Shown in pieces: positions 14,541 to 39,297 of a stretch of 64,000 bases of DNA; the stretch's first letter is position 1; every line of letters starts with the position of its first letter. A model generated the notes under the pieces. The model was not told the DNA's origin, searched no databases, and worked only from the letters and a program-made list of their open reading frames with translations. A program made the position numbers and the translations under genes. This DNA is from Clostridiales bacterium (GTDB taxonomy: Bacteria > Bacillota > Clostridia > Lachnospirales > Bianqueaceae), in the NCBI GenBank assembly GCA_024689505.1, contig JAILDJ010000177.1, forward strand, positions 1 to 64,000, read 5' to 3'.

Positions 14541-14578
14541 AAAAAAACCTCTTTCAAATATTTGTGAAAGAGGTTTTA
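14541..14578 (-). terminator. Intrinsic terminator of the tRNA-Val transcription unit
   Basis: Reverse strand AACCTCTTTCACAAATATTTGAAAGAGGTTTTTTT immediately after tRNA-Val(CAC). Confidence 0.8.
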
Positions 14579-14579
14579 G

Positions 14580-14653
14580 TAGGGATGAAAGGGCTCGAAC
14601 CTTCGACTTCTACGATGTGAACGTAGCGCTCTGACCAACTGAGCTACATCCCC
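14580..14653 (-). tRNA. tRNA-Val (anticodon CAC)
   Basis: Reverse strand GGGGATGTAGCTCAGTTGGTCAGAGCGCTACG-TTCACAT-CGTAG...GGTTCGAGCC...CATCCCTA; cloverleaf folds; CCA not encoded. Confidence 0.93.
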
Positions 14654-14674
14654 AGGAGATAAACAATCATAACC

Positions 14675-14757
14675 GAAGCGCTGCCCACAGCGCTTCTCCC
14701 CCGACACTCGGACTCTCGCAATTCCACTACCGTTTCATTGCTTCGTCCTCGTTTCGG
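14675..14757 (-). other. Candidate structured RNA element between tRNA-Val genes (GA-core hairpin plus second hairpin)
   Basis: Reverse strand CCGAAACGAGGACGAAGCAAT..ATTGCGAGAGTCCGAGTGTCGG followed by GAAGCGCTGTGGGCAGCGCTTC; shares core with 38826-39029 repeats. Confidence 0.55.
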
Positions 14758-14761
14758 CAGC

Positions 14762-14823
14762 GAATCGTAAACTCTTCAGTTCTCGCTCTTGCAAGCAAAG
14801 CTCGAACCAAGAGTTTCCGATTC
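14762..14823 (-). other. Long hairpin between tRNA-Val genes
   Basis: gaatcgtaaactctt ... aagagtttccgattc, 14/15 complementary arms. Confidence 0.6.
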
Positions 14824-14839
14824 TTGGTTATAAAAAAAG

Positions 14840-14913
14840 TGGAACTAAATGGACTCGAACCATCGGCCTCTACGATGTCAACGTAGCGCTCTAACCAACT
14901 GAGCTATAGTTCC
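14840..14913 (-). tRNA. tRNA-Val (anticodon GAC)
   Basis: Reverse strand GGAACTATAGCTCAGTTGGTTAGAGCGCTACG-TTGACAT-CGTAG...GGTTCGAGTCC...TAGTTCCA. Confidence 0.93.
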
Positions 14914-14999
14914 ACATGTGCTCGTTACCGAGCGCAAAAAGTATAATACTACAAATCAGGAGATTTGTAAACCCCTGGTTTGCAATTTTTTGAATTTTT

Positions 15000-37213: not shown

Positions 37214-38746
37214 ATGAAACTCGCATTGCTCATCTTGTACTTTGGCGTGATGGTCGCCATCGGTCTCTACTGTCGTAAGAACGCGACGGACGTCAACGGA
37301 TTCGTCCTTGGCGGTCGTTCCGTCGGTCCTTGGCTTACTGCTTTCGCTTACGGCACTTCTTATTTCTCTGCTGTCGTATTCGTTGGCTACGCAGGACAGT
37401 TCGGCTGGAAATATGGCATCGCCGCGACTTGGGCCGGGATCGGTAATGCGATCATTGGCTCCCTGATGGCTTGGGTCATCCTTGGCCGCCGCACGCGCAT
37501 CATGACGCAGCATCTGGATTCCGCAACCATGCCGGAATTCTTCGGCCGCCGCTTCTCCAGCAACACTCTGAAGATCGTGTCTTCTGTCATCATCTTCATT
37601 TTCCTGATCCCCTATACCGCTTCTCTGTATAATGGTCTGTCTCGTCTGTTCGGTATGGCTTTCCATATCGACTACTCTGTCTGCATCATCCTGATGGCTG
37701 TGCTGACCGCCATCTACGTCATCGCCGGTGGTTACATGGCTACCGCCATCAATGACTTCATCCAGGGCATGATCATGCTCGTAGGTATCGTAGCCGTCAT
37801 CGCCGCTGTCATCGGCAGCAAGGGCGGTCTGATCGAGGCCATGAACGGCCTGGCTGCCGTACAGGACGAAACCGTCTCCACCACGCCCGGTATCTTCAAC
37901 TCCTTCCTGGGCCCGGATCCATTGAATCTATTGTTCGTCGTCATACTGACTTCCCTGGGTACCTGGGGTCTGCCGCAGATGGTCCAGAAGTTCTATGCGA
38001 TCAAAGATGAAGGCTCCATCAAAAAGGGTACCGTCATCTCCACAATTTTCGCGATCGTCGTTGCTGGTGGCTGCTACTTCCTTGGTGGTTTCGGCCGTCT
38101 GTTCTCTGATAAGATCGATATCGCGAAGAATGGTTTCGACTCTGTCATCCCGACCATGCTGGAAGGTCTCTCACCCTTCATGCTGGCTCTGGTCGTGATC
38201 CTGGTCCTCTCCGCTTCCATGTCCACCCTGTCTTCTCTGGTCATGACGTCCAGCTCCACCTTGACGATCGACTTCATCAAGGGTCAGTTCGTCAAAGACA
38301 TGGATGACAAGAAACAGGTCCTGTTGATCCGTATCCTGATCGTTGTATTCATCGCGATCTCTTCCATCATCGCACTTGTCCAGTACAAGAGCAAGGTTAC
38401 TTTCATCGCGCAGCTGATGGGTATTTCCTGGGGCGCTTTGGCCGGTTCCTTCCTGGCTCCTTTCCTGTACTCCCTGTACTGGAAACGTACCACCGAGCTT
38501 TCCTGCTGGGTCTGCTTCGTGTTTGGTTCCGTTCTGATGGTCGTAGATATGCTCAGACCGGCACTTCTGCCCGTATGGATGCGTTCCCCGATCGTCTGCG
38601 GCGCTATGGCTATGCTGCTGGGTCTCGTCATCGTCCCCATCGTCAGCCTGTTCTCCAAAGCACCTGACCGTATGTTCGTAGACGATTGCTTCGCCTGCTA
38701 CGAAAAACCCACCGTTGTCGAACAAAAGACAGCCCTGGGAAAGTGA
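37214..38746 (+). CDS. Sodium:solute symporter family protein
   Basis: FVLGGRSVGPWLTAFAYGTSYFSAVVFVGYAGQFGWKYG, ATAINDFIQGMIM, LSASMSTLSSLVMTSSSTLTIDF; 510 aa. Confidence 0.93.
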   Translation: MKLALLILYFGVMVAIGLYCRKNATDVNGFVLGGRSVGPWLTAFAYGTSYFSAVVFVGYAGQFGWKYGIAATWAGIGNAIIGSLMAWVILGRRTRIMTQHLDSATMPEFFGRRFSSNTLKIVSSVIIFIFLIPYTASLYNGLSRLFGMAFHIDYSVCIILMAVLTAIYVIAGGYMATAINDFIQGMIMLVGIVAVIAAVIGSKGGLIEAMNGLAAVQDETVSTTPGIFNSFLGPDPLNLLFVVILTSLGTWGLPQMVQKFYAIKDEGSIKKGTVISTIFAIVVAGGCYFLGGFGRLFSDKIDIAKNGFDSVIPTMLEGLSPFMLALVVILVLSASMSTLSSLVMTSSSTLTIDFIKGQFVKDMDDKKQVLLIRILIVVFIAISSIIALVQYKSKVTFIAQLMGISWGALAGSFLAPFLYSLYWKRTTELSCWVCFVFGSVLMVVDMLRPALLPVWMRSPIVCGAMAMLLGLVIVPIVSLFSKAPDRMFVDDCFACYEKPTVVEQKTALGK

Positions 38747-38752
38747 TAAAAA

Positions 38753-38825
38753 GCGTTCTAAAGTCAAATACAGCCGTGGAAGCACATTTATGCGCTGACA
38801 CGGCTTTATTTGACCTTAAGAACGC
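38753..38825. repeat. Long hairpin downstream of SSS symporter gene (terminator-like on reverse strand)
   Basis: gcgttct..gtcaaata.agccgtg / cacggct.tatttgac..agaacgc. Confidence 0.75.
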
Positions 38826-38917
38826 AAAAAACACGAGGACGTAGTGCGAAGCATGAGAGTCCGAGTGTTTTCAGGGAGCCGGGAGTGCTGTAAGCACGAA
38901 GGCTCCCGTTTTTATCA
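38826..38917 (+). repeat. 92-nt structured repeat, copy 1
   Basis: aaaaaacacgaggacgtagtgcgaagcatgagagtccgagtgttttcagggagccgggagtgctgtaagcacgaaggctcccgtttttatca. Confidence 0.9.
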
Positions 38918-38937: not shown

Positions 38938-39029
38938 AAAAAACACGAGGACGCAGTGCAAAGCACGAGAGTCCGAGTGTTTTCAGGGAGCCGGGAGTGC
39001 TGTAAGCACGAAGGCTCCCGTTTTTATCA
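38938..39029 (+). repeat. 92-nt structured repeat, copy 2
   Basis: Only a few substitutions from copy 1, all in or next to the inner hairpin. Confidence 0.9.
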
Positions 39030-39297
39030 GGACACTATCATATTTATGCGTCTTTTCTTTGATTTTGGATCGTCTATTGGATCAAAAATCATTCTTTTAA
39101 TGATCGATCTGGATCCATCCAGAAAAACAGTGGATATAATTCCAAGGATCCCTTAAGACTGATCCAATCCATGGATCAAATACCCCTGATTTGATTCAAA
39201 GCATCCATTTGCTGAAGGATCATGGTGGATACAATGATGAAAAACTCTCATATTTGATCCATCACACATGAGCAAACCCGCAGCTTGACCGCTCTCT

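Follow-up and report, generated by a model that had tools for sequence, protein, structure and literature searches.

Clostridiales-1 between two tRNA-Val genes: a catalogued gut-bacterial RNA with a mobile-repeat form and a candidate role at gene ends

A structured element between two tRNA-Val genes

The minus strand of the window (the whole stretch that was analysed, 64,000 nucleotides of contig JAILDJ010000177.1) carries two valine tRNA genes with a structured sequence between them, which raises the question of what this sequence is and what it does at such a place. The first-pass annotation had described here a GA-core RNA motif whose stems differ from those of a second copy in the window, had proposed a processing signal, a stand-alone RNA or a mobile structured repeat, and had stated that a match to a known Rfam family would make it a described RNA. 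The sequence and coordinates of that motif are correct, and folds of both copies return the GGAC/GTCC helix with its GA/GA and GAA/GAGA internal loops. Pairing is likewise kept in the outer stem (CCGA/TCGG vs AAAA/TTTT) and in the inner one (GCAAT/ATTGC vs GTGC/GCAY), so that the first-pass annotation was right to read it as an RNA-like element, structured and conserved, with stem changes that compensate each other. The reported hairpins are real, but the element is longer (165 nt), with a closing stem, P1, and a long first hairpin. The features of the locus are as follows.

14668-14832, minus strand: full Clostridiales-1 (RF01699) element between the tRNA-Val genes (cmscan 57.3 bits, gathering 48, E 4.3e-12)
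14826-14832, minus strand: P1 closing stem (7 bp), 5' strand UAUAACC, adjoining the T-run that trails the tRNA (fold; partner 14668-14674)
14668-14674, minus strand: P1 closing stem, 3' strand GGUUAUG (fold)
14762-14823, minus strand: hairpin 1, long and rapidly varying (fold)
14698-14760, minus strand: hairpin 2, the reported GA core (fold; 94-copy comparison)
14749-14750, 14745-14748 and 14742-14744, minus strand: 5' side of hairpin 2, GA, GGAC and GAA, respectively
14714-14717, 14710-14713 and 14708-14709, minus strand: 3' side of hairpin 2, GAGA, GUCC and GA, respectively
14675-14696, minus strand: hairpin 3, 9 bp, GAAGCGCUG/CAGCGCUUC (fold)
14839-14913, minus strand: tRNA-Val (GAC), upstream in the putative operon (ARAGORN)
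14579-14653, minus strand: tRNA-Val (CAC), downstream in the putative operon (ARAGORN)
14943-14971, minus strand: promoter-like site before the first tRNA, TTTACA-17-TATTAT (match to the consensus; chance alone would give 0.9)
14544-14577, minus strand: terminator-like hairpin with a T-run, after the second tRNA

The motif belongs to Clostridiales-1 (RF01699), a catalogued gut-bacterial RNA family. The Rfam match named in the first-pass annotation as a refuting result is thus what the analysis finds, and the element is not new as a motif, its discovery as such being ordinary. The window copy covers positions 1-166 of the model. Minimum-energy prediction gives the consensus fold of the family (closing stem and three hairpins with a GA-rich core) for both copies and for the orthologues; for the tRNA-Val copy this is a closed four-way junction of -76.8 kcal/mol (z -9.7 against dinucleotide shuffles). 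Family and window copies thus share the full-length covariance model, the four-way junction, the core hairpin and the third hairpin. In the accessible text of the discovery paper (Weinberg et al. 2010, PMC2864571) Clostridiales-1 occupies one table line, with no function given. Our search of the searchable literature returned no published function, and that paper was the only one with content on the family, which Rfam types as 'Gene; sRNA'. What is described below (mobility, terminal inverted repeats and target duplications, the stop-codon position and tandem copies that lack hairpin 1) is absent from the searchable papers.

The structure is conserved at this site. All four members of the genus (G000, G001, G002 and G003) carry the element there. 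Over aligned positions the window copy shares 68% identity with the copy in G002 and 70% with that in G003, yet these two still reach -76.7 and -83.3 kcal/mol, respectively, when folded. When 30% random substitution is applied to the window copy, the value obtained is -46 +/- 6 kcal/mol. The structure is therefore kept at the orthologous tRNA-Val site despite approximately 30% substitution. Across 94 parsed copies, pairing reaches 90% in P1 (53% with shuffled partners) and 88% of cells in P2a (62% with shuffled partners). In hairpin 3 the commonest form, present in 58 of 77 parsed copies, is a 4x3 purine loop, mostly GRRA/GNA; hairpin 2 has a similar GNA/GRRA or GNA/GGA loop in the opposite orientation. 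G-U pairs are rarer in P1 and P2a (35/1244, 2.8%) than in tRNA stems (49/656, 7.5%), which, the copies not being independent, is only a hint of a constraint at the DNA level.

Since the promoter-like site and the terminator flank the tRNA pair, the two genes look like one operon with the element in sense between them. The TTATAC block of the promoter-like site recurs in G001 and G002, which also have, after the second tRNA, an inverted repeat resembling that of the window and ending in a T-run. From this position, transcription of the element is probable. The arrangement, and its presence in all four genus members, would suit a processing signal for the tRNA-Val transcript. This explanation is nevertheless highly unlikely, because most copies in the relatives examined flank protein genes, and because the tRNA-Val genes seen in the other genera of this bacterial family appear as separate matches, not paired around the element. 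As a general role, tRNA processing was rejected on the first of these grounds.

Copies in the genome and the symporter site

A search of the 2.87-Mb host genome with the core pattern gives three exact matches (14705-14752 on the minus strand, 38833-38867 and 38945-38979 on the plus strand) and none with the reversed pattern as control. Over all genome contigs scanned, exact matches occur in one sheep MAG only, at two loci; a covariance model was for this reason used instead. The possibility that only three hits exist, raised in the first-pass annotation, is accordingly true of the exact core, but the covariance search finds 17 host copies over the family cut-off. Clostridiales-1 is present in 27 of 146 relatives from the order, with a patchy distribution, and in 16 of 392 genomes of a class-wide draw; copy numbers range from 1 to at least 18. 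For comparison, 122 copies were collected with their flanks.

The other copies in the window lie at the end of a symporter gene.

38744-38917, plus strand: full Clostridiales-1 element, opening with the stop codon of the symporter gene 37214-38746 as its first three bases (90.5 bits by cmscan, E 4e-21)
38940-39019, plus strand: tandem second copy, reduced to the core hairpin and hairpin 3 by loss of hairpin 1 and P1 (fold; alignment with the sheep MAG locus L034)

The full copy has a fold z of -10.9 against dinucleotide shuffles. Its 90.5 bits come from a permissive scan; it escaped the fast gathering scan of the window as a whole and receives only 38.9 bits in the strict genome scan. RF01699 is therefore probably under-annotated, with fast filters under-counting the family. 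As the second copy in L034, a closely related locus, retains part of hairpin 1, the tandem copy of the window most likely lost this hairpin by deletion.

At the symporter site the element is full in the host and in the sheep MAG, and reduced to hairpin 1 in G003; G002 and G011 lack it. G002, G003 and the host share the residue position at which the symporter protein ends. Because this end is the same with the element absent, reduced or complete, the stop codon at which the element lies is the native one, and the protein is left unchanged. The retention of hairpin 1 alone in G003, at a gene end where G002 has an ordinary terminator, would fit a transcription terminator or attenuator, as would the resemblance of some first hairpins to bidirectional terminators. 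Outside the relative G119, terminator-like first hairpins nevertheless occur in 26 of 109 copies, only mildly above their frequency in random windows (46 of 336), and we regard this role as very unlikely. An intrinsic terminator (GC-rich hairpin with U-run) was rejected as a general role, hairpins 1 and 3 showing mild or no excess over control windows.

Other repeats were seen near these gene ends. Downstream of the symporter, at 39045-39260, GGATC/GATCC-type words (TTGGATCAAAA, GATCCA) are repeated across about 200 bases, and a similar GATCCA-rich stretch lies at the corresponding place in G003. Downstream of the G009 orthologue of the symporter (L227), a different repeated unit (CTTGTACACTGTGACC and a GCATGCTTTGCGTAGCAAAGCATGC palindrome) occurs where the host has Clostridiales-1.

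The mobile form

In G119 the form of Clostridiales-1 is a MITE: its ends are inverted repeats, and its target sites are duplicated over 5 bp. The 13 full copies collected from this genome are mostly at least 94% identical to another copy, and they end in common inverted repeats that extend past the Rfam boundary. The terminal repeat TGATGYYRGGGTCAAAAG occurs 124 times in G119 (0 for the reversed control), where deleted derivatives and solo ends are also present. Among 16 elements bounded by two terminal inverted repeats (13 from G119, 2 from G013 and 1 from G045), 8 have identical 5-bp flanks, as compared to a mean of 0.9 and a maximum of 4 in 5000 sets of shuffled partners. Shared terminal inverted repeats are present in all three of these genomes. 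A mobile structured repeat, one of the options first proposed, is in this way borne out in some relatives, with terminal repeats and target duplications at its borders. The host's own copies are probably mobile in origin too, as judged by homology. Their inverted ends in the window consist of the 7-9-bp P1 stem only, with a sequence that varies from site to site. In copies outside G119, target duplications do not exceed chance (3 of 102, with 2.2 expected), which is to be expected if the copies are old, or if they have otherwise arisen. The MITE form may be ancestral to the other forms of the family.

Where lone terminal repeats were inspected, the first bases on their inner side gave no sign of an autonomous transposon or transposase, and a plasmid search with the G119 element gave no match. 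The G119-type element also occurs in 17 short, unannotated faecal contigs deposited as phage (MT837314.1, MT837347.1 and 15 others), which may be bacterial and were left out of the comparison.

Position of the copies and a possible gene-end role

After merger of tandem and orthologous copies, 92 sites were available, with gene calls made by a simple ORF rule. Sites were classed as young when a copy at least 85% identical exists elsewhere in the genome (28 sites, 13 of them from G119) and as old otherwise (64 sites). Young copies are randomly oriented (12 sense, 14 antisense) and touch a stop codon at 3 of 28 sites. At old sites the element is predominantly in sense with the upstream gene (47:12, p 5e-6), and at 27 of 64 its 5' end falls within -12 to +5 nt of the stop codon of a same-strand upstream gene. 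The mirror case, with the 3' end on a stop codon, is found at none of the old sites (p 1.5e-8), and a further 16 of them come after a T-run. The difference between young and old sites gives a Fisher p of 0.003, the young class being dominated by G119. The stop codon is often formed by the first three bases of P1, as at the symporter gene of the window.

As read from these positions, the data suggest that older copies are kept in sense right at gene ends. The bias in position and orientation would then reflect selective retention. The sense bias could also arise because antisense copies are harmful and not because sense copies are of benefit, and a target preference could likewise account for both the sense and the gene-end bias. 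The last possibility belongs to a purely selfish mobile repeat, whose machinery would prefer gene ends or terminators and whose structure would be kept for mobility and not for the host. The MITE form and the patchy distribution are consistent with such a repeat, the scarcity of G-U pairs in P1 and P2a hints in the same direction, and pneumococcal BOX repeats, which also overlap stop codons, have been read as parasitic (PMC3049150). Taking into account that the stop-codon and sense bias is absent in young copies, and that the structure is kept at the orthologous tRNA-Val site, we consider this explanation somewhat unlikely.

A stand-alone small RNA gene, the function implied by the Rfam type, would suit the compact, strongly folded form with its conserved core. 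Many copies, however, begin at a stop codon or immediately behind a tRNA or T-run, with the next gene within 20-100 nt, so that a promoter of their own would sit inside the upstream gene; furthermore, a T-run is usually missing after the third hairpin. A separate gene is thus quite improbable, and the 'sRNA' label may mis-describe the family.

The explanation we favour, at about even chances, is a MITE-derived RNA that persists in sense at gene 3' ends and acts there as a gene-end RNA element. Clostridiales-1 would be a small, structured, non-autonomous mobile repeat, new copies of which insert in either orientation. Copies would persist where a gene's 3' end places them in a sense transcript, be that end a stop codon, a terminator or the end of a tRNA, and the four-way-junction RNA would become part of the upstream transcript. 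The stable junction may shield the 3' end of the upstream RNA, or set where it is processed, and keep it apart from the cistron that follows; if P1 contains the stop codon, a terminating ribosome would open this stem. An effect on RNA stability or processing is proposed by analogy with known repeats. A bolder form of the gene-end explanation is rather improbable: here the domesticated MITE RNA would be a 3' element coupled to translation termination, in which, the stop codon being part of the closing stem, each terminating ribosome opens and refolds the junction and so sets decay or processing of the upstream RNA in many unrelated operons.

The closest parallels are small repeats of other bacteria. 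BOX elements of Streptococcus pneumoniae (PMC3049150) resemble Clostridiales-1 in build and position, being small, structured and modular, and in 36 cases a BOX copy forms the very 3' end of a gene, including its stop codon. They belong to a different host and are enriched between convergent genes. Old Clostridiales-1 copies, by contrast, lie mostly in sense, and mirror cases on the stop codon of a convergent gene do not occur among them. The bcr1 repeats of the Bacillus cereus group (PMC6542083, PMC3446304), to which they are restricted, are MITE-like, number tens of copies and often lie inside operons or UTRs; they carry a TTTAT motif linked to mobility, and the likeness noted here is one of features. 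ERIC and Correia/NEMIS elements are MITEs co-transcribed with genes (PMC2229807, PMC10969869). At gene 3' ends ERIC destabilises the upstream mRNA in an orientation-dependent, ribosome-linked manner that involves RNase E, and Correia elements are cleaved by RNase III (PMC2229807, PMC10969869). These elements offer a model, by analogy and not by sequence relation, for how Clostridiales-1 might work.

The gene-end explanation therefore has parallels in BOX and ERIC, and it is testable in any cultured carrier. To the catalogued motif, the present analysis adds a mobile form, a gene-end position and a structure kept at a fixed site, which together give Clostridiales-1 a testable role and, in the literature searched, the first functional lead since its listing in 2010. 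What emerges in gut Clostridia is a mobile structured repeat fixed in sense on gene ends, often bearing the stop codon. A different tandem repeat of related appearance (TGCGCTGAGGAAAAAACA...) was also observed at positions 1243-1410 of locus L053 (G000, contig C206); its first hairpin is Clostridiales-1-like, at 32 bits only.
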